A stretch of DNA of 64,000 bases from Rhodoferax sp. (GTDB taxonomy: Bacteria > Pseudomonadota > Gammaproteobacteria > Burkholderiales > Burkholderiaceae_C). Each line of letters starts with the position of its first letter. Position 1 is the stretch's first letter. The DNA is taken from positions 1 through 64,000 of the forward strand of contig NZ_JAQTMS010000009.1 in the NCBI RefSeq assembly GCF_028714215.1, written 5' to 3'. Below the pieces are notes generated by a model. The model was not told where the DNA came from. It saw only the letters and a list, made by a program, of their open reading frames with translations, and did not search any database. A program made the position numbers and the translations under genes. This document shows positions 22,482-35,171 of the stretch, piece after piece.

Positions 22482-23666
22482 GTGCCCAAGCACTTCCCGC
22501 CTCTTCTCCTACCCTTGATTCTGGTTACCCTGACGGGCCACATGGCCTTGTCGGGGGGGCGCCTTTCGGGTTCCCTGTATGCCCTGAGCGTCGGCTCACC
22601 CGAGCTGGTGGTGGGTATTTTCATGGCCATGTTTTCGGTCTTGCCGGCTCTGGCGGCGATGTCGATCGGCCGCTGGGTCGACCGCATGGGCGCGCTGCCG
22701 GTGATACGGCTGGGCGTGCTGGCGGTGCTGATCGGCGCCTTGGTGCCGGTGCTGTGGCTCAGCGTGCCCTCGCTGTTTGTGATGGCGGTGCTGATCGGCT
22801 TCGGCTTCAACGCCATGTCGGTGGCCAGCCAGCATACGGTGGGCGCCATGGCGCAGGGCAAAACGGCGGAGCAGCGTCTGCGCAACTTCGGCTGGTACGC
22901 CTTGGGGCATTCGGCCTCCAGCGCGCTGGGGCCTTTCATCTCGGGCCTGTTGATCGACCATATCGGTTTTCGCACCGCTTTTGCCACCATGGCCGGGTTT
23001 ACCTGCGTCGCCTGCTGGCTGGTGTTCAAGAGACTGCGCAAGCTGCCGGCGGCAGCCAAATCGGAAGCGGCCGGCGACGACCAACCCAAGCCGCAGGCCT
23101 GGCATGACCTGCTGGCGGCGCCCGAGCTGCGGCGCATCTATTACGTCAGCATGGCGCTGGCCTGCACCTGGGACTTGTTCATCGTGATGCTGCCGGTGCT
23201 GGGCACGCGGCTGGGTTTTTCGGCCTCCGTCATCGGCACCGTGTTCTCGCTGTTTGCCGTCGGCACCTTTGTCAGCCGGGCCCTGATGCCCTGGCTCTCG
23301 ACCCGTTTTCGCGAATGGCAAATCATGCGCGCCGCGATGGTCATCATCGCCCTGGTGTTTATTCTGCTGCCGTGGGCCAGTGCCGCCGCTGCCTTCATGC
23401 TGCTGGGCTTTTTGTTCGGCACCTCGGTCGGCTTCAGCCAACCCAATATGCTCTCCTTGCTGCATGCGGCGGCACCCGGTGGACGCGGCGGCGAGGCGCT
23501 GGGTCTGCGCTCCCTGATCGGCAACAGTTCATCGGTGATGGTGCCCATCGCCTTCGGCCTGGCCGTCGGGCCGCTGGGCGTGGCGCCGCTGCTGTGGGCC
23601 GGCGCCACGCTGATCAGCAGCGCCCTGCCGGCCGCGCACCGCGGCGTGCGGCATCATTTGGGTTGA
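22482..23666 (+). CDS. MFS transporter
   Basis: About 12 hydrophobic segments; MSIGRWVDRMGALPVIRLG. Confidence 0.85.
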   Translation: MPKHFPPLLLPLILVTLTGHMALSGGRLSGSLYALSVGSPELVVGIFMAMFSVLPALAAMSIGRWVDRMGALPVIRLGVLAVLIGALVPVLWLSVPSLFVMAVLIGFGFNAMSVASQHTVGAMAQGKTAEQRLRNFGWYALGHSASSALGPFISGLLIDHIGFRTAFATMAGFTCVACWLVFKRLRKLPAAAKSEAAGDDQPKPQAWHDLLAAPELRRIYYVSMALACTWDLFIVMLPVLGTRLGFSASVIGTVFSLFAVGTFVSRALMPWLSTRFREWQIMRAAMVIIALVFILLPWASAAAAFMLLGFLFGTSVGFSQPNMLSLLHAAAPGGRGGEALGLRSLIGNSSSVMVPIAFGLAVGPLGVAPLLWAGATLISSALPAAHRGVRHHLG

Positions 23667-24436
23667 CATAAACCGCTCAGCAGGCTGGGCATAACCGCCC
23701 CGGCAGCACTACGCAGGGTCCAGGTGCATTCGTCGTCCAACGCCGTCGCCGTCGGGTTGACCTGCACCACCTTGGCACCGGCTTGTTTTGCAAGCCAGGG
23801 AATGCGTGCCGCCGGGTGCACCAGGCCCGAGGTGCCAATGGCCAACAGCAGGTCGCAGGCTTCGGCGGCGGCAAATGCAGCATCCAGTACCTCCTCGGGC
23901 AGAGCTTCACCAAACCAGACGACGCCGGGGCGGACCGGGCCACCGCAATGCTGGCAACTTGGGGGACTGAGTCGGCGCCCTCCTTCGGGTTCCTCAGGGA
24001 TGCCAGGCGGAAGCAGATGTGCCCGGCCGCAGGCAAAGCAGCGCGGAGCGTGCAGGCTGCCGTGCAAGTGCAGCACCTCGGTACTGCCAGCGCGCTCGTG
24101 CAGGTCGTCCACGTTCTGCGTCACCACGGTGAGCCTGGGAACAAGCTGCGCCAACCCGGCAATGGCAACATGCGCCGGGTTGGGCTGCGCGCGCAACACC
24201 TGCATGCGGCGCCACTCGTACCAGCCCCAGACCAGTTCCTTGTCCCGGCGAAAAGCGTCGGGTGTGGCCAGGTCCTCGGCATCGAAGCGCTGCCACAAAC
24301 CCGTCAGTGCTTCACGAAAAGTCGGAATGCCGCTCTCGGCGGAAACGCCGGCGCCGGTGAAGACCACGACATGATCTGCCTGTTGCAGGGCAGCGATCAA
24401 TTCGGGCGGGATGGCGGTGCTGGCGTCTGGGTTCAT
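23654..24436 (-). CDS. Sir2-family NAD-dependent deacetylase
   Basis: VVVFTGAGVSAESGIPTFR; TQNVDDLHERAG; LHLHGSL. Confidence 0.93.
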   Translation of the reverse strand: MNPDASTAIPPELIAALQQADHVVVFTGAGVSAESGIPTFREALTGLWQRFDAEDLATPDAFRRDKELVWGWYEWRRMQVLRAQPNPAHVAIAGLAQLVPRLTVVTQNVDDLHERAGSTEVLHLHGSLHAPRCFACGRAHLLPPGIPEEPEGGRRLSPPSCQHCGGPVRPGVVWFGEALPEEVLDAAFAAAEACDLLLAIGTSGLVHPAARIPWLAKQAGAKVVQVNPTATALDDECTWTLRSAAGAVMPSLLSGLCQPK

Positions 24437-24774
24437 GATGATTTTCGAAGGCTGGTGAAGCCCTCAGTTTCGCCGCCAGGGCGACGACCTGTGTCGTCCG
24501 GCAATACCGGCAGGAACGACCTTCCGGATGCGTCACATTTCGCCGCAGGGCTCAACAAAATGGAGTCTCCTCATCCATCATTGCGACAAGAAGCCAGGCT
24601 GTAATGCAACCGAACTCCTTGCGGCGCGCCAGCATCCGCTCTGCGACACATCTCATCGCATCATTGATTAATAGTCTCCCAGTTACGAGATTGAAGGGAA
24701 AGCCCCAGCAAATGCAAACCAAGCGGGCAACACCGTCGCTGAGACGCTTTTCCACATTACAAAGGAATTCTGAA

Positions 24775-25530
24775 ATGAACAGACCAATCGAGCCACCTTC
24801 AACCCAGGAATCACCAGATCCGACATTTGTCCGGGACATTCTGCGCAACCGAATGGCAACCGATGATCTTCTTGAAAGATTGAGGAAAGCGTCGAACGAA
24901 CTGGCGGCCGGATTGGACATTCCGTTTCCGGGTTTGCTACCGGCGTGTTCTTCCGCTCGCAATCGGGCAAAGCGGATTGATCGGTTACTCTGGGCTGTGC
25001 GGCAGAAGGCAGCAAGTCTGCGCGAACAACAAATGTCGGAGCTACCCGAACTCACCCAAGTGCGGACCGATATATTGGCGCACTTGGATAGACAGATGCT
25101 TTTGCTGGGCCCTGCTCTTGGAGATTGGTTTGAGGGTCAGGTTCCGCATCGTGGCGCTATTGGTAAATCACGTGGCGACTGGATTGAGATTGACAACTCG
25201 GTCTGGATCAAATTTCAATTTCGGCACGATCTTGATTCCGAACTTTCGCAATCCTGGCCGCTTGAACTTGGATGGCAGTTTGGACGCGTTCTATGCCGAT
25301 GGCGGTGTACCCCCAGCGATGACCACCCACATTTTGAATTTCAATCGTTTGCTGATGAGCTGAAAACAGTTGATCGCCGGGAACGTTCAGATGTGAAAAG
25401 CGAGCTCTTGCTTGCGGTTTTGCCTCGCATTCCAGAGTTGGCCTTTGCCGCGAAGTTTGTAGAGCGCCTTTCTCTTCAAGTTGGCAATAGCCGGTTTACC
25501 GCAGGCATTGCCATGTCGCCCGGACTTTGA
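24775..25530 (+). CDS. Hypothetical protein, first gene of the FtsZ-like/AAA+ module
   Basis: ORF 24604-25530; likely start ATG 24775 (after AAGGAATT); one base before the next gene. Confidence 0.55.
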   Translation: MNRPIEPPSTQESPDPTFVRDILRNRMATDDLLERLRKASNELAAGLDIPFPGLLPACSSARNRAKRIDRLLWAVRQKAASLREQQMSELPELTQVRTDILAHLDRQMLLLGPALGDWFEGQVPHRGAIGKSRGDWIEIDNSVWIKFQFRHDLDSELSQSWPLELGWQFGRVLCRWRCTPSDDHPHFEFQSFADELKTVDRRERSDVKSELLLAVLPRIPELAFAAKFVERLSLQVGNSRFTAGIAMSPGL

Positions 25531-25531
25531 C

Positions 25532-26575
25532 ATGGATCGCCGCCAATTTCTGCAGAGCTTGAACGCCAGCGGCATGGGTGCCATCCTCCCCGCATCGGCT
25601 ATGCCGCCAATAGTCGCACAAACGGCTATCGTTGAGGAGGCCGGTACGGCATGGGATATCCCAAAAATTGGCATCGTGTCTGTCGGCGGAATCGGCGGAA
25701 GCTGCATTCCCAAGGCAGGTGATCGCGCCCGGAGCCTGCCATATCTCAGCCGAACTGTTGCAGTCGATACCTACGGCGTCGATTTGCACGGCATGAACGC
25801 TGATCGCAAGGTGCTGGTGGGCGACAGCAAGACCCGGCTCAACCCCCTTACCGCAAGGCTCCTGGCTCAATCCGCTAGCAATGAAATTGCAGAGGCAGTT
25901 GCCGACCTGGACATGGTCTTGCTGGTTGCCGGGATGGGTGGCGCCACCGGCACTGGGGTTGCTCCCATCGTCGCGCAAGTTTTACGCGAGCAAGGCATCT
26001 TGATCCTGGCTTTTGCGGTCATGCCTTTCCACTGTGAGGGGCCGTTGCGCCAGCAAACCGCGCAAGTTGGTGTTCGCAATCTTCGGCACCATGTCGACAC
26101 GTTGATTCCGTTCGTCACCAACGACTTTAACCCAGATGCCAAAAACGTCAGATGGCTATCTGCCGCGACCCAATTGGCCCCGCTGGCCTTCATCGAGGTA
26201 TGTCGAAACATCATGAACCCGGTTTGCCGGCCAGGCTGGGTCAATATTGACTTTGAAGATCTGCGACACATCATCTTGAGCCAGGAAGGAGAATGCGCGT
26301 TGGGATTCGGATCTGCCAAAGACGCGCTCGGCGCTGCGACCGCGGCGATTGACCACCCCTTGCTCGGTCGAGGCCGATTGCAGCGGGCGTCGGCGTCTCT
26401 GGTTGCCATCGCAGCCCCACAGCAATTGCTCAAGCTACAAGACTCAAAGACCGTTCTGAACAGCGTCAGAAAGCAGATGTCCAGAGACGCATACGTGTTC
26501 TACGCCTCGACCTACGACGACAATCTCGATAACGAAATTGGGGTGTCGATCATCGCCAACGGCATCCGGGGGTGA
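25532..26575 (+). CDS. FtsZ/tubulin-superfamily GTPase (accessory FtsZ-like) with Tat-like N-terminus
   Basis: GIVSVGGIGGS; LLVAGMGGATGTGVAPIVAQVLREQG; VNIDFEDLRHI T7-like loop; LGAATAAIDHPLL; DNEIGVSIIANGI; N-term MDRRQFLQ. Confidence 0.85.
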   Translation: MDRRQFLQSLNASGMGAILPASAMPPIVAQTAIVEEAGTAWDIPKIGIVSVGGIGGSCIPKAGDRARSLPYLSRTVAVDTYGVDLHGMNADRKVLVGDSKTRLNPLTARLLAQSASNEIAEAVADLDMVLLVAGMGGATGTGVAPIVAQVLREQGILILAFAVMPFHCEGPLRQQTAQVGVRNLRHHVDTLIPFVTNDFNPDAKNVRWLSAATQLAPLAFIEVCRNIMNPVCRPGWVNIDFEDLRHIILSQEGECALGFGSAKDALGAATAAIDHPLLGRGRLQRASASLVAIAAPQQLLKLQDSKTVLNSVRKQMSRDAYVFYASTYDDNLDNEIGVSIIANGIRG

Positions 26576-26691
26576 TCTCTGCAGTGACATCGCCAGAGGT
26601 GCGACGGTATGCGACGTACAACACAAATTTTGTGCGTCACAAAATGACTCAGCGACGTGGATACTTGCCTTTCAACCAAAAGGGAAAAGCC

Positions 26692-28953
26692 ATGTCAGCA
26701 CGCACAAATCTGCCCTCGTTAGCCTACACACAACGTCTTGCGCCACGCGGAGACGATGCCAGCACCTGCTCTGGTGATGACGCATTGTTGCCATTGATTC
26801 AACGCTGGGTGCTGGCCTTGATGGTGCAGTACAAGAAAGTCTTTGAGTTGCCGGAAGATTCAGTCTTGCGAAAACTGCTCAAGGTTGGCAGTCCGGAATA
26901 CTGGCATAACCATGAAGACGACCCGATCACATATGAAGACGATCAGGAACCCGGCGCGAAGGCCGACCAGCGCCGCAAACAGCGCTGGACTGCCGAACTG
27001 CTGGCGGCAGCCAAAGTGAATGCCGCAGCCATAGAGCCTGACTTTTCTCATCCAGTTTTTGCCAACGTACGGGCACTGGGCGAGCTTCTGGGCCTGAACG
27101 ATACCGACATGGTGGTCCTTTGCTTCTTGGTCTTGTTGCAGGGGGATGAACGATTTAAGGAAAGCGTCGCCAGCATGCGTTTAAAGCTGAGCAACGAGAG
27201 CGAATGTGTTGCCATGTTTGCCAGTGCCACGGGAGGCAACACCGTCGATCTACAGCGCGTACTGCGCCGCGACAGCCCATTGCGCAGCATGGGTTTGCTC
27301 AAGCTTGGCAAAGAGGCGCGCGACATGGAAGACTTTCTGGAGCTTCCACGGGGTCTTGCCACGCTCATGATGGACCCGCACGAATCAACTTTGCCACTGG
27401 TGCGGCATTTCTTCACACCGCGCAGCCCGAGCACGCTGGACCTCTGCCACTTCCCGCACCTGGCCGATGAAGCTGCCATCATTGCCGGCATCTTGCGCGA
27501 GGCGATGCGCCAGGGCATTGCGGGTACCAACATCCTGCTCTACGGCCCGCCCGGCGTGGGCAAGACCGAGCTGGCTTCGGTGGTGGCGCAGACTCTGCAA
27601 GCCGAGCTTTATGAGGTGGGCTACGCCGACGATGAAGGTGCCCCGATTCGCGGCGTCGAGCGATTGCAGGCCTTCAACCTGTGCCAACGCCTGCTGAGCC
27701 GACGCAACAATGCACTGGTGTTGTTCGACGAGGTGGAGGACATGCTGGAACGCGGTGAAGTACCCGGCAAAGCATGGGTCAACCGCGCCCTTGAAGAAAA
27801 CCCGGTGCCAGCGATCTGGATCACCAACCACGCCAACGCGCTGGAGCCGGCCTACCGTCGGCGCTTTGACTACTCTGTGCAGCTCAGCACGCCGCCGCGC
27901 GCCGTGCGCCTGCAAATTGCCAGCCACCACCTGCTGGGCATTGCCAGCGTCGATGCAGCGAATTCCGACGCCGCAGCACAAAGCGCGGACCACACCTGGC
28001 TGCACGACTTGGCCGAGAGCCCGAGTCTGACCCCATCGCAAATGGAACGCGCGGCCAAAGTGGCCCGCCTAGTCGAGGCTCAATCTCTGATGCAGGGTGA
28101 CACGGCTCCGGCAAAGCAGCGAGTGCTACAGGTGCTGGAGCGCTCGGCGAAGCTGCTGGGTCAGCCCAAACTGCGCCCCGGTCGCCCCATGGCCACCGCT
28201 TACGACCTGGCCTATCTGAACACCGATGCGCCGGTTGCCGCTCTGGTCGAATCGCTGCGCCATGCGCCCGGTGGTTCGTTCTGCTTCTATGGCCCACCCG
28301 GTGCCGGCAAGACGGCGCTGGCTCGCTATATCGCCCAGGCGCTGGAACTGCCCGTGGTGCTACGCCGTGCGTCTGACCTGCTGGACATGTATGTGGGTGG
28401 CACTGAGCAAAAAATCGCCGAGATGTTTGACACCGCCCGTACTGAGCCTTGCGTGCTGATTCTGGATGAGGCCGACTCCTTTCTGCAATCACGCGCTGAA
28501 GCCAAGCACTCCTGGGAAATCACCCAGGTCAATGAACTGCTGACGCAAATGGAAGAGTTTGAGGGCTTGTTCATCTGCACCACCAACCTGCTGGAAAAGC
28601 TGGACCCGGCCAGTCTGCGCCGCTTTGACTGGAAGGTGGCGTTCAGCGCCATGACGGCTTCGCAACGCTGGGCCTTCTTTTTGCAGGAATTCCACCTACT
28701 GGGCGGCAACATGGAGACGGCAGCGCCACTACAGTCCTATGTGCGCCAGCAGTTGGGCGGGCTCACGCCGGGAGACTTTGCGCCCGTCACACGGCAGTTT
28801 CGGCTGTTGCGGCGCACGCCATCGGCGCAGGAACTGCTGGAGCGCTTGCGTGGCGAACTGGCAGTCAAGAACGGCGCTCACGCGAATTCGCCCGTGTACC
28901 TCAGCGCCTATGGCAACGGCGCCGGAATCAAAAACATCCCCGTCGCCGCTTGA
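26692..28953 (+). CDS. Double AAA+ ATPase (Vps4/SpoVK-like), MoxR-independent
   Basis: Two Walker A (LLYGPPGVGKTELA; FYGPPGAGKTALA) and Walker B (LVLFDEVED; LILDEADSF). Confidence 0.85.
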   Translation: MSARTNLPSLAYTQRLAPRGDDASTCSGDDALLPLIQRWVLALMVQYKKVFELPEDSVLRKLLKVGSPEYWHNHEDDPITYEDDQEPGAKADQRRKQRWTAELLAAAKVNAAAIEPDFSHPVFANVRALGELLGLNDTDMVVLCFLVLLQGDERFKESVASMRLKLSNESECVAMFASATGGNTVDLQRVLRRDSPLRSMGLLKLGKEARDMEDFLELPRGLATLMMDPHESTLPLVRHFFTPRSPSTLDLCHFPHLADEAAIIAGILREAMRQGIAGTNILLYGPPGVGKTELASVVAQTLQAELYEVGYADDEGAPIRGVERLQAFNLCQRLLSRRNNALVLFDEVEDMLERGEVPGKAWVNRALEENPVPAIWITNHANALEPAYRRRFDYSVQLSTPPRAVRLQIASHHLLGIASVDAANSDAAAQSADHTWLHDLAESPSLTPSQMERAAKVARLVEAQSLMQGDTAPAKQRVLQVLERSAKLLGQPKLRPGRPMATAYDLAYLNTDAPVAALVESLRHAPGGSFCFYGPPGAGKTALARYIAQALELPVVLRRASDLLDMYVGGTEQKIAEMFDTARTEPCVLILDEADSFLQSRAEAKHSWEITQVNELLTQMEEFEGLFICTTNLLEKLDPASLRRFDWKVAFSAMTASQRWAFFLQEFHLLGGNMETAAPLQSYVRQQLGGLTPGDFAPVTRQFRLLRRTPSAQELLERLRGELAVKNGAHANSPVYLSAYGNGAGIKNIPVAA

Positions 28954-28980
28954 ACCCCGACCAACCATCAGGAAAACACC

Positions 28981-29400
28981 ATGGAACCCAAACACAAGAA
29001 AGACGCAGCCTTCAGCCATTTGCTGAGCAATATGCTTGACGGTTCTGCTCACGCACTTGAGCTTGCACAAGAGTTGACCAACGACCGCGATGAACACTTG
29101 CGGGCATTGCAACGCCAGTTTGCCACCGCGCCAGTCATGGGCTTTCGTCCCGGTCAGATCATCCAGTGGAAGCCGGGCATGAAAAACAGACTGATCCCGG
29201 TCTATGGCGAACCGGCGATTGTGATGGAGGTGCTCAACCCGCCGGTTTTTGACTCCAACAAAGAGTTGGATGGCACCAGCCTGTATCGGGAGCCGTTGAA
29301 CCTGGTGCTGGGCATTCAGGATGTCGATGGTGATTTCTTGACGTTTCACTACGACGCTCGCCGTTTTGAGGTGACGGCAGACCTGGGAGAAGCCAAATGA
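28981..29400 (+). CDS. Small conserved-looking protein, paralog 1
   Basis: FRPGQIIQWKPGMKNRLIPVYGEPAIVMEVLNPPV matches the next ORF. Confidence 0.7.
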   Translation: MEPKHKKDAAFSHLLSNMLDGSAHALELAQELTNDRDEHLRALQRQFATAPVMGFRPGQIIQWKPGMKNRLIPVYGEPAIVMEVLNPPVFDSNKELDGTSLYREPLNLVLGIQDVDGDFLTFHYDARRFEVTADLGEAK

Positions 29401-29792
29401 GCACACCCCGCAAACTGGACCCGGCCCTGCAATCCATGCTGCACGGCTTGGCAAGCACGGAGCAGCCGGACGTGGATGTACGCCGTGAAGCACGTGAGCA
29501 AAAGATAGAAGCCCTGCGCGACGGCTATCGCCGCATCCATGGCACCGACCCCTGTAGGTTTCGGCCAGGCGACTTGGTACGCTGGCAACCGGGCCTGAAA
29601 TACGTCAAGTGGCCGCAGTACGGTGAGACTGCCGTCGTGGTGGAATGCCTTGACCCGCCGGTCATGGACGACGTGTCCAGTAGCTTCACACCGTATTTTC
29701 GAGCGCCACAGACCCTGGTGCTGGGCTTGCAGCACGACAATGGCTTTCATTGCTGGCACTTCGATGGTCGGCGCTTTGAGCTGGTTCCGTAG
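29397..29792 (+). CDS. Small conserved-looking protein, paralog 2
   Basis: FRPGDLVRWQPGLKYVKWPQYGETAVVVECLDPPV; ATGA overlap with previous gene. Confidence 0.7.
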   Translation: MSTPRKLDPALQSMLHGLASTEQPDVDVRREAREQKIEALRDGYRRIHGTDPCRFRPGDLVRWQPGLKYVKWPQYGETAVVVECLDPPVMDDVSSSFTPYFRAPQTLVLGLQHDNGFHCWHFDGRRFELVP

Positions 29793-29823
29793 ACGTTGAC
29801 AATAGAACAAGGGGGAAATCACC

Positions 29824-31326
29824 GTGCGCACCTTTTCAAAATCCAAGCTGCTCGCCCTGCGCCAGTGCCCCAAACGCTTGTGGCTGGAAGTGCATCGCCC
29901 TGATTTGCGCGAAGACTCCGCCGCCACTCAGGCGAGCTTTCAGGTGGGTTTTCAGGTTGGCGACATTGCTCAGCGCCTCTATGACCCTGAGGGTCTTGGG
30001 GCGCTGATCGACGTAGCGGCTGACGGCTTTGACGCCGCCTTCAAACGCAGCGCAGAACTGCTCAGCTCCACCCGGCAACCCATCTTTGAAGCCGGGTTCT
30101 CCGCTGGCGGGGCCATGGCCTTCGCCGACGTCATGTTGCCGGTACAAGAAAATGGCAGCACGCTCTGGCGCATGGTTGAAGTCAAGTCCGCCACCAGCGT
30201 CAAGGACTACCACCGTGATGATCTGGCAGTGCAAGCCTTTGTTGCCCAGAACGCCGGCGTACCGCTACAGTCCATTGCCTTGGCGCACATTGACAGTTCA
30301 TGGACTTATCCGGGGGATGAGGATTACAGCGGACTACTGAAGGAAAATGACCTCACGGCAGAAGCCTTCTCACGCGGCGAAGAAGTGAGAGCCTGGATTG
30401 CCCAGGCGCAAAGCATTGACGCCATGCCAGCCGAGCCCGTCATGGAAACCGGTGCGCATTGCGACACACCCTATTCGTGCGGTTTTTATGACTATTGCAG
30501 CCGCGATGAGCCGAAAGCCGAATTCCCCATCTACTGGCTACCTCGCTTCGGTACCGCCAAAGTACGAGAGCTTGCCGAACTGGGCGTCAACGACCTCAGC
30601 GCCGTTGCAGACGACCTGCTCAACGCCAAGCAACAGCGGGTGAAAGCCCACACCCTTGCCGGCACCGTGTTCTTCGATACCGAGGGCGCCGCTGCCGACT
30701 TGGCAGTTCACAGCCTGCCCGCCTACTTTCTGGACTTCGAAACCATCCAGTTTGCCGTGCCCATCTGGAAGGGGACGCGCCCTTATCAGCAGAACACATT
30801 CCAGTTCAGCCTGCATACCCTGTCCGCATCAGGTCAGCTTGATCACACGGAATTTCTTGATATTTCCGGCAATGACCCAGCCGAACCCTTTATTAATGCG
30901 CTGATAGCCGCCTGCGGCGTTGAAGGGCCGGTGTATGTGTACAACGCCGGGTTTGAAATGGCGCGCATAAACGAGCTGGCCATCCGGTACCCGCAGTTCA
31001 GCGAAGCCCTGCTGGCCATCAATGCCCGGGTGGTCGATCTGTTGCCCATTGCGCGTGAACGCTACTACCACCCCAGCCAGCAAGGCAGTTGGAGTATCAA
31101 GAAGGTGCTGCCCGCTGTCGTGCCAGAACTCCGCTACGACGCGCTCGATGGCGTGCAGGATGGCGGCATGGCGATGGACGCTTTTCTGGAGGCCATTCAC
31201 CCGGACACCAGCGTCGAGCGCAAAGCACAGATCGAACAGCAACTGCTGGCCTACTGCAAGCTCGATACGTACGCCATGGTGCGCCTGTGGCAAGTGTTTG
31301 CCGGGCGCACCGACTTGAGCCTCTAA
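29824..31326 (+). CDS. DUF2779 domain protein (Cas4/RecB-like plus DEDD exonuclease-like regions)
   Basis: SKSKLLALRQCPKRLWLEVHRPDL; VEVKSAT; CDTPYSCGFYDYC; YFLDFETIQFAVPIWKGTRPYQQ; GTG start. Confidence 0.87.
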   Translation: MRTFSKSKLLALRQCPKRLWLEVHRPDLREDSAATQASFQVGFQVGDIAQRLYDPEGLGALIDVAADGFDAAFKRSAELLSSTRQPIFEAGFSAGGAMAFADVMLPVQENGSTLWRMVEVKSATSVKDYHRDDLAVQAFVAQNAGVPLQSIALAHIDSSWTYPGDEDYSGLLKENDLTAEAFSRGEEVRAWIAQAQSIDAMPAEPVMETGAHCDTPYSCGFYDYCSRDEPKAEFPIYWLPRFGTAKVRELAELGVNDLSAVADDLLNAKQQRVKAHTLAGTVFFDTEGAAADLAVHSLPAYFLDFETIQFAVPIWKGTRPYQQNTFQFSLHTLSASGQLDHTEFLDISGNDPAEPFINALIAACGVEGPVYVYNAGFEMARINELAIRYPQFSEALLAINARVVDLLPIARERYYHPSQQGSWSIKKVLPAVVPELRYDALDGVQDGGMAMDAFLEAIHPDTSVERKAQIEQQLLAYCKLDTYAMVRLWQVFAGRTDLSL

Positions 31327-31350
31327 TCAACGCATCAACCAAGTATCACC

Positions 31351-32316
31351 ATGCCCAAACGCCCTGATCCCCTGGATACGCTGCAACTGTCTATCGAGCT
31401 GCTGCACCGCATACCCAGGCGCCGTTCCATCAGCACAACAGAACTACACCAGCAGTTGAAGAATGCCGGCTTTGAGCGCCAGCCACGCACCATCCAGCGC
31501 ATGTTGGAAACGCTGTCAGAGGTCTTCAACATCGAGCGTGACGACAGCGCCAAACCCTACCGCTACTGCTGGAAGGAAAACGCCAAGGGTATTTCTCTTG
31601 GCGCCCTGAGCGCACAAGAGTCCTTGCTGCTCACGCTGGCCGAGCAACAGCTCAGCAGCCTGCTGCCGGTCAAGCTCATGAAATCAATGCAAGGCTTCTT
31701 CGCCCAGGCACGCGGCCAGTTGAACGAGAAAGGCGCGACCCTGCGCGAACGCCAATGGCTGGACAAAGTGCGCGTGGTCAGCACCAGCCAGCCGCTACTG
31801 CCACCCAAAGTTGACCCCGGCGCGTTTGAGCAGGTCAGCAATGCGCTCTACGCCAACCAGTGGCTGGACGTGGACTACAAGAACGCCGCTGGCAAAAGAG
31901 CGACTTCCAGAGTCATGCCCCTGGGTCTGGCACAACAAGGACCGCGCATGTACCTGGTTTGCCGGTTTGAAGGCTATGAAAACGAACGCTGCCTCGCGCT
32001 GCACCGCATCATCTCGGCCCAGGCATCGACGCTGACCTTTGAGCGCCCCAAGGAATTCAACCTGAAGAAGTTCGATGAAGACGGACGCTTTGGCTATGGC
32101 GACGGCAACAAAATCCGCTTGAGTTTCAGGATAGAGAAAGGGGCCGGACTGCACGTCGTGGAGTGCCCGCTGTCTGCGGATCAGAAGGTGGTGGAACTGG
32201 ATGGCACCTACGAGATTTCGGCAACGGTGGTGGACTCGGATATGCTGGACTGGTGGCTGCGGGGGTTTGGGGATGCGACGTGGGGTGTCAAAAGAGAAGC
32301 TGTAAAGAAACTTTGA
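31351..32316 (+). CDS. WYL-domain transcriptional regulator
   Basis: N-terminal HTH (RRRSISTTELHQQLKNAGFERQPRTIQRMLETL) and WYL-like core YANQWLDVDYKNAAGKR. Confidence 0.85.
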   Translation: MPKRPDPLDTLQLSIELLHRIPRRRSISTTELHQQLKNAGFERQPRTIQRMLETLSEVFNIERDDSAKPYRYCWKENAKGISLGALSAQESLLLTLAEQQLSSLLPVKLMKSMQGFFAQARGQLNEKGATLRERQWLDKVRVVSTSQPLLPPKVDPGAFEQVSNALYANQWLDVDYKNAAGKRATSRVMPLGLAQQGPRMYLVCRFEGYENERCLALHRIISAQASTLTFERPKEFNLKKFDEDGRFGYGDGNKIRLSFRIEKGAGLHVVECPLSADQKVVELDGTYEISATVVDSDMLDWWLRGFGDATWGVKREAVKKL

Positions 32317-32325
32317 AAGGGAAAA

Positions 32326-33024
32326 ATGATTGATCAAAAAAAGACGAAAGTCTGCGCCTATGTCATGACTGTGGATTCGGGATTCGCACCGAATCCGTTT
32401 CATGGTGTTTGTACTCTTGCGGTTTGCACACCAAATCATATGCGTGCAAACCTCGGCATTGATGACTGGATCGTTGGAATTGCGGGACAAGGCCTCCGTT
32501 CAAGGCTAGGAAAGTCTGATCAATGGAAAATAATTTATGCCATGAAGATCGGTGATAGACAGGATCTTGATAGCTATTACAACCATCCTGCGTATCTAGC
32601 AAAAATTCCAAAGCTAATTGGCTCAAGAATCGAGATGTGCGGGGATAACTTCTACAGACGTACGCCCGAGGGAATTAAGCACACTCGACAGACCAATAAT
32701 CATGAGGGAGACTTTGAAAAACAAGACACCAATGGTGATCGGGTTTTTATCGGAACAGAGTTTTACTACTTCGGATCGCTGGCCATAGAACTTCCGCAGA
32801 ACGAGTCATGGAGTAAGTTAATAGTCCAAAAATTTCAAAACTGCGCGGTTGGCCTTAGATATCTGCTTGGCGGATCTAGTCGCGAGCGGTGGGGAGAAGA
32901 TGAATTTGAAAAATTTCGAGACTTTCTTAAACAGCGGCAACTAAACTGGATTCCGAACCCCAAGGATTTCCCCCCTATGGAGAACCCGAAAAACCAAAAT
33001 ACTTGTCACTCCAAGTGTGCGTGA
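32326..33024 (+). CDS. Nmad2-type putative nucleotide-modification protein
   Basis: YVMTVDSGFAPNPFHGVCTLAVCTPNHMR...DDWIVGIAG. Confidence 0.75.
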   Translation: MIDQKKTKVCAYVMTVDSGFAPNPFHGVCTLAVCTPNHMRANLGIDDWIVGIAGQGLRSRLGKSDQWKIIYAMKIGDRQDLDSYYNHPAYLAKIPKLIGSRIEMCGDNFYRRTPEGIKHTRQTNNHEGDFEKQDTNGDRVFIGTEFYYFGSLAIELPQNESWSKLIVQKFQNCAVGLRYLLGGSSRERWGEDEFEKFRDFLKQRQLNWIPNPKDFPPMENPKNQNTCHSKCA

Positions 33025-33043
33025 TCAACATAGGATTGAGGCA

Positions 33044-33745
33044 ATGAAAATCCTCTTTTTGCGCGTTGGGATTGATCGCGGTTGCGGTGGCACTTTGTCT
33101 CCGCGATTCCAAAATGGAGCATTTGAGTACGTACCAATACCCGAGTCTTCAGAGTTGTCTGTGGGGCGCGGCGTAACGTACCCCGAACTGCCCGCCCGGC
33201 ATGGCGGCACGTTGGATAAGTACTCGGGCTCCACTAGCTACACACACTACGACCCCGAGTTTGAAACATTCACCTATGGTGAGCCCAGCGAGCCAAAGCG
33301 CTCGCAGTTACTTCGACTTACGGCGGGCGACAGACTTGTTTTCTACTCAGGTTTTCAGGGGCCGGATATCGCAAAAGGTACTTGCTTTGTCATTGGCTAT
33401 TTGACGGTTCGCGCGGTTCATCGCGCCCCCATGAATGAACCTTGGCCACCACCTTCGCTCGCCCATCTTCATCGGAACGCTCATTTCCGTCGTAAAAACC
33501 CAGAAGCCACTCTCGTCGTCGTTGAGGGTGAGCCATCAAGCTCTCGGCTGTTTACGAATGCACTACAACTTTCCGATGACCATCAACGGGTTTTAGCCGG
33601 TGTCGAGAGCGTTGTTGGCTTCGGTGGATCTGTCATGCGAGCTGTTGGCCGCTGGGTTCCAGAAAGTCATAACAACAAAGCGCTCGAGTGGCTTCGGAAG
33701 GATGATTTCCAGGCAAGTGAAGCGTTAATCTCGAATCAACATTAA
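33044..33745 (+). CDS. Nmad3-type putative nucleotide-modification protein
   Basis: MKILFLRVGIDRGCGGTLSPRFQNGAFEYVPIPES; DRLVFYSGF. Confidence 0.75.
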   Translation: MKILFLRVGIDRGCGGTLSPRFQNGAFEYVPIPESSELSVGRGVTYPELPARHGGTLDKYSGSTSYTHYDPEFETFTYGEPSEPKRSQLLRLTAGDRLVFYSGFQGPDIAKGTCFVIGYLTVRAVHRAPMNEPWPPPSLAHLHRNAHFRRKNPEATLVVVEGEPSSSRLFTNALQLSDDHQRVLAGVESVVGFGGSVMRAVGRWVPESHNNKALEWLRKDDFQASEALISNQH

Positions 33746-33756
33746 GGATATTTCAA

Positions 33757-34026
33757 ATGGGAACTAAATGTAAGTTTTGCGGCTCATCAAGTTTTGGAAC
33801 TACATCCAATTCTGGTCACCCAGATGGATGTCACGAACATACAGGCGTAGATTCCAAACATTGCGTATTCTGCAACTCAACCAGTTACGGAACCACGTCA
33901 AACTCGGGTCATCCAGATGGATGCCACAAACATGGAAGTGATGGACAGCATTGCATCTATTGTGGATCTACAAGCACCGGTACAACATCCAATGTCGGTC
34001 ATCCAAATAAGTGCCACGAAAGTTAG
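33757..34026 (+). CDS. Triple CxxC/HxxxxCH repeat mini-protein (putative zinc-binding)
   Basis: Three tandem units CxxCxSxSxGTTSNxGHPxxCH in 89 aa. Confidence 0.75.
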   Translation: MGTKCKFCGSSSFGTTSNSGHPDGCHEHTGVDSKHCVFCNSTSYGTTSNSGHPDGCHKHGSDGQHCIYCGSTSTGTTSNVGHPNKCHES

Positions 34027-34223: not shown

Positions 34224-35039
34224 CTAAAACTTCCCGTGCCTGCCACCGCCCGCGGCAAAGCGCAGCGCCCCTTGCAGACCTTCTTCAATGCACTGCTTGC
34301 CGCGCTGCCACTCCTGGTGCAGGGCTTGCGGCAGCGGCAGGTCCCACTGGGCGTAGGCGCTCAGGCGGTCGGCGCGCATGGTTTTTTGCGGAAAGTCGGC
34401 CAGTTGCTGCGCCAATGCCAGCGCAGCCTCCAGCGCCTGGCCGGTGGGCACGACGCGGTTGCACAAACCCATTTGCAACGCCTCGGCTGCTTCCACCTTG
34501 CGCCCGGTCAGGATCAAGTCCATGGCGTGACCCATGCCAATCAGGCGCGGCAGACGCACCGTGCCGCCATCGATCAGCGGCACGCCAAAGCGACGGCAGA
34601 AGACGCCGAAGTAGGCGTCCTGTTCCATCACCCGCATATCGCACCACAGCGCCAGTTCCATGCCGCCGGCCACCGCCGCACCACTGACCGCCGCAATCAC
34701 CGGCTTCGACAACAGCAAGCGCGACGGCCCCATGGGACCCAGCGGACCGGGCGGCACACAGTCTTGCGGTGAAAACTCAAGCCCCAGCAGCGGCCCCGCC
34801 TGATCGGTCTGGGCCTGTTGCGCCAGACGCGCGCCTGCCTGCAAATCCCAGCCGGCGCAAAAGTGGCCATGGGCGCCATGAAACACCGCGACCCGCGCAT
34901 GGTCATCGGCATCGAAGGCCAGAAAGGCGGCATGCAGCGCATGCGCGGTGGCGGCATCGACGGCATTGCGCACATCGGGCCGACTCAAAGTCACCACGCT
35001 GATAGCGCCATGTTGGCGAACTTCAACAGAGTTGTTCAT
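34224..35039 (-). CDS. Enoyl-CoA hydratase/isomerase family
   Basis: VVTLSRPDVRNAVD; GAAVAGGMELALWCDMRVM. Confidence 0.87.
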   Translation of the reverse strand: MNNSVEVRQHGAISVVTLSRPDVRNAVDAATAHALHAAFLAFDADDHARVAVFHGAHGHFCAGWDLQAGARLAQQAQTDQAGPLLGLEFSPQDCVPPGPLGPMGPSRLLLSKPVIAAVSGAAVAGGMELALWCDMRVMEQDAYFGVFCRRFGVPLIDGGTVRLPRLIGMGHAMDLILTGRKVEAAEALQMGLCNRVVPTGQALEAALALAQQLADFPQKTMRADRLSAYAQWDLPLPQALHQEWQRGKQCIEEGLQGALRFAAGGGRHGKF

Positions 35040-35171
35040 GACCCATATCATGACGCGTTTTTGCGCTTGTCCGGGTTCACTTGTCACCCGCCTGACACAC
35101 GTCGGTAAAAACCCTGTCAGCCCGAAGCGGGATTGCAGCTATAACCGTTGCACCATGCAACAGGAGAGCAA

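Follow-up and report, generated by a model that had tools for sequence, protein, structure and literature searches.

An FtsZ paralog with a predicted twin-arginine signal in a candidate defence locus of Rhodoferax sp.

Analysis of a 64,000-nucleotide (nt) stretch of Rhodoferax sp. DNA (assembly GCF_028714215.1, contig NZ_JAQTMS010000009.1, positions 1 to 64,000; hereafter the window) revealed a run of nine genes on the forward strand (24775-33745) that includes a gene for an FtsZ-like GTPase with a predicted export signal. A preliminary description of this DNA had reported an accessory operon of five tightly spaced open reading frames (ORFs) at 24604-29792; all five are real and lie on the + strand where it placed them, but they make up only the first half of the run. 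The first gene encodes the hypothetical protein P0001 (24775-25530; 251 amino acids (aa) from the ATG at 24775) directly 5' of the FtsZ-like gene (25532-26575; 347 aa), with the previously noted gap of 1 nt between them. The double AAA+ ATPase gene that follows (26692-28953; approximately 753 aa) belongs to an ORF open from a GTG at 26572, although translation more likely begins at the ATG at 26692, which is preceded by AAGGGAAAAGCC and lies 116 nt past the FtsZ-like stop codon, in agreement with the spacing of about 115 nt given earlier. Two small paralogous genes (28981-29400, 139 aa, and 29397-29792, 131 aa) share the 4 nt ATGA, also as first described. The run continues past 29792 on the same strand with genes for a DUF2779 nuclease (29824-31326), a WYL-domain transcriptional regulator (31351-32316), and the nucleotide-modification-associated domain proteins Nmad2 (32326-33024) and Nmad3 (33017-33745), separated in turn by 31, 24, and 9 nt, with Nmad2 and Nmad3 overlapping by 8 nt. 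The flanking genes are both on the - strand and encode a Sir2 family deacetylase (23654-24436) and an enoyl-CoA hydratase (34224-35087).

The only clear homologue of P0001 (47% identity, 254 aa) is likewise encoded directly upstream of a gene for an FtsZ-like protein with a Tat signal (L066/L213 = G815:C58), and because this homologue aligns from 24775, that position is a likelier start than 24604. The operon is regarded as more than a chance grouping: other genomes contain homologous clusters, and purifying selection acts on the FtsZ-like genes (see below).

The identification of the second gene product as an FtsZ-like GTPase was borne out by matches to both Tubulin (PF00091, 2.1e-24) and FtsZ_C (PF12327, 2.9e-11), which together give it the two-domain content of FtsZ. 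Its score against the NCBIfam ftsZ model TIGR00065 was 182.5 bits, below the cut-off of 295.2; the T7 loop is kept (NIDFED) and the T4 loop (GMGGATGTG) is a one-residue variant (GGATGTG). A canonical ftsZ with a better match is indeed present elsewhere in the same genome (G000:C32), and the window copy sits among island genes, so that it is neither the sole ftsZ of the genome nor a member of the division cluster. A plasmid or phage segregation tubulin of the TubZ/PhuZ type stranded on the chromosome is hardly credible and was rejected on domain content, as the sequence is nearest to FtsZ, carries FtsZ_C, and has no recognisable TubR-type partner. One relative is plasmid-borne (R. antarcticus), but this is the only match in the plasmid collection over the full length including the N-terminus, and none of the phage records covers even 80% of the query.

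The FtsZ-like protein begins MDRRQFLQSLNASGMGAILPASA and its N-terminus (25532-25612) is a predicted twin-arginine (Tat) signal peptide (MDRRQFLQSL...LPASA) displaying the twin-arginine n-region, weakly hydrophobic h-region, and AxA-like end of Tat substrates. A tatC gene is encoded in the same genome (G000:C29), and from these sequence features we infer that the protein is exported via Tat in vivo. Tat-type N-termini were identified in approximately 25 distinct FtsZ-like relatives, counting once the loci seen via two collections (L063=L108, L066=L213, and L098=L204), with the consensus M-D/N/K-RR-x-F/L/I-L/I/V followed by an almost uncharged stretch that often ends in AxA. Examples include MNRRKLFQLLGMLGAWTALPAQA (L003), MDRRTFLKGTAAALAIPAFPPGLQA and MKRRTFLRLTGAAAVLGLPWLAWA (L088), and MDRRYFLKGLGAGTVGLSLPPTASSA (L207), and the motif is shared although the relatives are only 26-46% identical. 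The motif was found in 0/57 canonical FtsZ proteins, while among the non-FtsZ genes in the loci analysed 8/984 passed the test, some of them apparently genuine Tat proteins. The arginine pair is near-invariant among the accessory FtsZ-like proteins, and intact T4 (GGGTG[TSG]G) and T7 (NxDxxD) loops occur together in 52 of the 57 canonical FtsZ proteins versus two accessory proteins. The Tat signal, which the preliminary description had not mentioned, is the most conserved feature of the family and speaks against a plain filament in the cytoplasm.

The accessory proteins vary in architecture. FtsZ_C is retained while the Tubulin domain sinks below its cut-off in L078 and L080, and one class comprises the Tat signal and GTPase domain without FtsZ_C (L205 and L207-L212). 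The 233-aa proteins of the L057 type were considered as frame-shift fragments and rejected as such, given that proteins of this length with these domain limits are also encoded in L207 and L211; related forms are found in L205, L208-L210, and L212. A second FtsZ-like form of approximately 190-220 aa, with the GTPase domain only, an intact T4, and no Tat signal, was observed near DUF2779-WYL loci (L068:9133-9714, L095:20009-20689, and L115:14346-14996) and comes after a small HEAT-like gene in L095 and L115. Damaged or shortened copies also exist: the GTPase core is missing from L066, the L214 gene is split, and L072 holds little beyond the Tat signal and part of FtsZ_C. Such broken or reduced copies, together with a patchy distribution, would be expected if duplicated, decaying ftsZ copies merely hitchhiked in island hotspots without a shared function. 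However, dN/dS was 0.25-0.43 in every pair tested (10 pairs, of which nine are close and one is distant), indicating that the FtsZ-like genes are maintained under purifying selection, and the Tat motif is kept over 26-46% identity, was apparently gained more than once, and recurs in a defence context. Hitchhiking was already disfavoured on these grounds and is decidedly improbable.

In a phylogenetic tree, the accessory proteins formed one deep clade plus a few members within or beside canonical FtsZ (L054, L073, and L088b), of which L054 and L073 were placed inside canonical Comamonadaceae FtsZ; the branches of the tree are long and their placement is unsure. The tree suggests that FtsZ was recruited repeatedly into an accessory role. 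The same tree bears on a decoy function, in which the Tat-signal FtsZ-like protein (Tat-FtsZ) would be a fast-evolving copy of a host hub attacked by phages, kept off the division ring by Tat, and binding of a phage FtsZ inhibitor would mark infection and activate the neighbouring nuclease or AAA machine. Repeated recruitment on long branches, erosion of the catalytic loops while the fold persists, paralogs of other phage-targeted hubs beside Tat-FtsZ (DnaB-like in L205 and L069, and in L054 a DnaA ATPase domain on its own), and the proven role of FtsZ as a sensor partner of CapRel (PMC13423816) all speak for bait. Yet a decoy has no need of export, and Tat would remove it from the very compartment in which phage inhibitors act; the long-branch placement is uncertain, and dN/dS below 0.5 gives no net positive selection. 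A decoy is rather unlikely.

Tat-FtsZ is patchily distributed, being present in 14 of the 90 genomes of the genus in a genus-wide profile search in which accessory copies are recognisable by matches that start in the Tat region, at the first position of the profile. A phylum-wide search with the full FtsZ alignment was dominated by canonical FtsZ and gave little information on accessory copies. The genus-seeded Tat-FtsZ loci encode WYL in 10/15 cases and DUF2779 in 6/15, and other modules combine Tat-FtsZ with WYL and two conserved unknown proteins (L207 and L211). In L208, L209, L210, and L212, conserved small genes encoding unknown proteins accompany Tat-FtsZ without WYL or DUF2779, and one of these (L210:6311-6832) looks papain-like in fold by eye only.

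The AAA+ protein contains two copies of PF00004 (5e-44), as expected from its earlier reading as a double ATPase. All 35 family members have two or more Walker A motifs, and 33/35 also have a pore loop of the Y-V-G type, a combination which we take to be the signature of a protein-threading unfoldase. The two small tandem proteins proved to be paralogs, as proposed, with 34-35% identity; the first is a possible AAA partner, and the pair occurs only with AAA in the order AAA-sm1-sm2-DUF2779-WYL (window, L074, and L084). Neither the small paralogs nor P0001 matched a family in Pfam, NCBIfam, or PADLOC, and structure prediction was unusable for both (AF2 pLDDT 43 from six sequences for the small paralogs and 37 from two sequences for P0001).

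Conservation across loci was evaluated in a nuclease-seeded genome scan that yielded 80 loci from Betaproteobacteria, Verrucomicrobia, and a few others, with gene presence called at 150 bits for AAA and an E-value of 1e-15 for FtsZ. WYL was present in 63 loci, usually directly downstream of the nuclease, the double AAA+ in 29, and an FtsZ-like gene in 12. The preliminary description had proposed a self-contained module of FtsZ-like filament and AAA+ remodeller, to be judged by co-occurrence of the two genes. This was not supported: AAA and FtsZ-like genes were found jointly in 3/80 loci against 4.4 expected under independence, AAA lacked FtsZ in 26/29 loci, and FtsZ lacked AAA in 9/12. Among eight AAA-seeded plasmid loci, none encoded an FtsZ-like protein, while a WYL gene or RecB-type nuclease was nearby in most. 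The conserved unit is thus WYL plus the DUF2779 nuclease, with AAA and FtsZ-like genes as variable passengers of WYL-regulated loci.

These counts also weigh on the model of the preliminary description as a whole, in which a Vps4/Cdc48-like AAA+ protein would remodel an FtsZ-like filament in the cytoplasm and the two would make up a self-contained machine for membrane remodelling, compartment formation, or segregation. The window protein has usable T4 and T7 loops, its AAA neighbour with a threading pore loop is adjacent in the same operon, the pair occurs together in approximately eight distinct loci, and L073 combines Tat-FtsZ with an AAA-M41 protease gene. Set against this are the frequent occurrence of either gene without the other in the nuclease-seeded loci, a Tat signal better kept than the GTPase motifs, and the single-domain Tat-GTPase forms without FtsZ_C, which leave such a machine improbable. 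In L073, the AAA plus peptidase M41 (FtsH-like) gene (L073:13492-15489) divergently adjoins Tat-FtsZ as a protease counterpart of the AAA and FtsZ pairing.

The constant nuclease combines a Cas4-like Fe-S PD-(D/E)XK part with a DEDD RNase H-like exonuclease and was assigned to DUF2779 (PF11074, 2.5e-41) with 141.3 bits against a cut-off of 23.3, while its PADLOC Cas4 match was weak (1.7e-4). DUF2779 has been grouped with 3'-5' exonucleases of the RNase H-like fold that have a PD-(D/E)XK partner (PMC3985635). In 82 homologues, the four cysteines and the D...E-x-K...Q residues of the Cas4-like part are invariant or nearly so and the DEDD residues of the RNase H-like part are kept, with N374 in 72/82; the nuclease is accordingly predicted to be catalytically intact. 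One scan returned 211 confirmed relatives, and no match was found in the phage collection. The WYL regulator (PF13280, 3.1e-9) is followed by Nmad2 (PF18753, 7.4e-42) and Nmad3 (PF18754, 4.6e-25), which recur in L071, L083, and L093 and in L083, L084, and L093, respectively. The stretch coding for both (32000-34000) has a G+C content of 48-51% versus approximately 60% around it, pointing to a separate horizontal acquisition.

The genomic context of the nuclease was sampled with 75 genes drawn at random at most 6 kb from it and 75 control genes taken from randomly chosen regions of genomes of the family. Matches to PADLOC at E<=1e-20 were obtained for up to seven of the 75 neighbours (at most seven proteins, as each family stands for a single reported member) compared to 0/75 controls, and comprised ZacB, AbiEii, PDC-S02, mREase_II, PDC-S18, mad3, and HEC-06. 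The preliminary description was right about the accessory character of the operon and in listing defence as one option. Pfam added GmrSD_N (2) and PvuRts1I/SRA in the same sample. The R. antarcticus plasmid copy adjoins a complete candidate PDC-M27ABC and a DUF2357/AAA pair, and the AAA-WYL genes of Sphaerotilus lie near the BREX genes pglZ/brxD. Tat-FtsZ genes without DUF2779 have similar neighbours, including SNF2, AIPR, and DNA methylase genes in L209, a type I restriction-modification system in L212, and an AbiGi-domain gene in L211.

Several further gene types recur around these loci. The Sir2 family deacetylase of the window (PF02146, 5.3e-52) is a divergent upstream neighbour that may be a component of the locus or mark an insertion hotspot. 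In at least 12 other loci, a Sir2 or HDAC gene is the immediate neighbour of the nuclease/AAA/FtsZ/WYL core, with HDAC in L067, L072, L074, L075, L077, L096, L099, and L121 and Sir2 in L069, L113, L125, L128, L178, and L215. A purely insertional hotspot beside Sir2 is weakened by the differing orientations and positions in which these genes abut the core, and the deacetylases may reflect either a functional role of protein deacetylation or two different hotspots. DnaB-like or DnaA-like genes, several reduced to the ATPase domain, lie beside Tat-FtsZ or DUF2779-WYL (L205:5960-7072, L069:3432-4187, L054:6515-7090, and L093:6595-9141) and are possible decoys of phage-targeted host replication proteins. 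A protein beside WYL-AAA(-FtsZ) displays caspase-like HG...DxC motifs by eye (L054:8608-9321 and L055:10783-11547) and had no Pfam or PADLOC match. Finally, ADP-ribosylglycohydrolase genes (L054:2489-2878 and L056:7155-8078) and an annotated macro-domain gene (L003:13477-14001) were found near WYL-AAA loci, which together with Sir2 suggests an NAD/ADP-ribose theme.

The best explanation is that of a defence locus with a Tat-targeted FtsZ paralog, a reading with about the same chance of being right as wrong. The locus would be a WYL-regulated, horizontally mobile defence-island locus with the WYL protein and the dual nuclease DUF2779 as constant core, in which the double AAA+ unfoldase, two small proteins, Nmad2/Nmad3, and the FtsZ-like protein would be interchangeable modules. 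The WYL protein may derepress the operon on infection and the nuclease may attack invading DNA. The Tat signal would route the folded FtsZ paralog to the inner membrane or periplasm, away from the Z-ring, and the paralog would act at or across the membrane. As long as the cell is healthy, TatBC driven by the proton-motive force would keep the FtsZ-like protein out of the cytoplasm; infection could then collapse the proton-motive force or occupy the protein, e.g., through a phage FtsZ-binding factor, so that it stays cytoplasmic and poisons or signals through host FtsZ, with the AAA+ machine clearing or remodelling it. By analogy with PINK1 import, Tat transport might thus serve as a membrane-energy sensor in immunity: while the proton-motive force is intact the FtsZ-like protein would be disposed of, and loss of that force during phage attack would free it for division arrest or death of the infected cell, a speculative and unlikely extension. 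A signal more conserved than the GTPase would fit a putative arrangement in which Tat holds a poison or bait derived from FtsZ outside the cytoplasm until the proton-motive force drops or a phage factor steps in. The specific proton-motive-force trigger is unlikely, and a literature search for a link between proton-motive force, abortive infection, and FtsZ gave no result.

Several observations weigh against the defence reading. The Tat prediction is based on the motif together with a hydrophobic region of modest strength (KD 0.07-1.65), and some relatives depart from it: one full-length relative (L064/L065, identical copies) and the short GTPase-only forms of L068, L095, and L115 lack a Tat signal, while L215 (NRHQF) and L216 (DHHQL) have altered motifs. 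The PADLOC enrichment consists of small counts obtained with a simple gene caller, and no PADLOC system model fits the operon core, which gave just generic AAA, weak Cas4, and generic WYL matches. Anti-phage activity of the locus is something we infer solely from genomic association. As AAA and FtsZ-like genes are not positively associated, the step in which the AAA+ machine acts on the FtsZ-like protein has little genomic support.

If the defence reading is correct, it would matter beyond this locus. FtsZ/tubulin proteins are treated as a cytoplasmic cytoskeleton, and a recurrent and selectively maintained family of paralogs with a Tat signal would open the membrane or periplasm, a compartment so far not envisaged for this fold, while their presence in defence islands would establish a new connection between cell division and bacterial immunity. 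The question is raised of a GTPase working where no GTP exists, or of another reason for shipping it there, and the nuclease-WYL core, as a widespread cassette, makes this question testable.

The lack of fit to a PADLOC system model is consistent with the initial impression that the combination is not a named system. A literature search found no FtsZ-like defence gene, Tat-signal FtsZ, or DUF2779 defence system and no described link of DUF2779 to WYL, AAA, or Tat-FtsZ, with subscription papers and preprints largely outside its coverage. The nuclease itself clearly belongs to the DUF2779 (PF11074) family, whose members join a Cas4/DUF83-like PD-(D/E)XK domain to an RNase H-like exonuclease. The window WYL protein resembles the WYL/BrxR-type regulators of phage-defence islands (PMC9122601) in its place beside diverse defence genes and differs from them in being tied to a DUF2779/AAA cassette. 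IetAS, an AAA ATPase plus subtilisin-like protease, includes a comparable type of AAA protein that works in defence and was rejected as an identity for the operon, which scored 139 bits with the IetA model versus a cut-off of 510, has a double rather than single AAA, and contains no protease gene.

Compared to canonical FtsZ (TIGR00065), the window protein shares the Tubulin GTPase domain, FtsZ_C, and the T7 motif N-x-D-x-x-D and differs by its sub-cut-off score, Tat signal, and place outside the division cluster; most accessory relatives lack intact T4 and T7 together. Accessory FtsZ-superfamily proteins encoded alongside a conventional FtsZ have been described as FtsZl1 and FtsZl2 (Makarova and Koonin, 2010, PMC2875224). 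These are far more diverged, with coiled-coil or approximately 300-aa novel C-termini instead of FtsZ_C; FtsZl1 is encoded together with vWA/OmpA genes, no genes are linked to FtsZl2, and a Tat signal was described for neither (PMC2875224). Identity with FtsZl1 was rejected as the window protein is 347 aa long and ends in FtsZ_C, and a vWA gene is absent among the nine genes; FtsZl2 was rejected given the presence of FtsZ_C and a total of 347 aa without the approximately 300-aa novel alpha/beta C-terminal region. In CapRel defence, host FtsZ together with phage Gp0.4 activates the response (PMC13423816), which joins FtsZ to anti-phage immunity, but CapRel senses the host's own FtsZ without a paralog or Tat signal. 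The FtsZ superfamily and WYL-regulated defence islands are already known, and the one categorically unusual feature of the locus is the predicted export signal on an FtsZ paralog.

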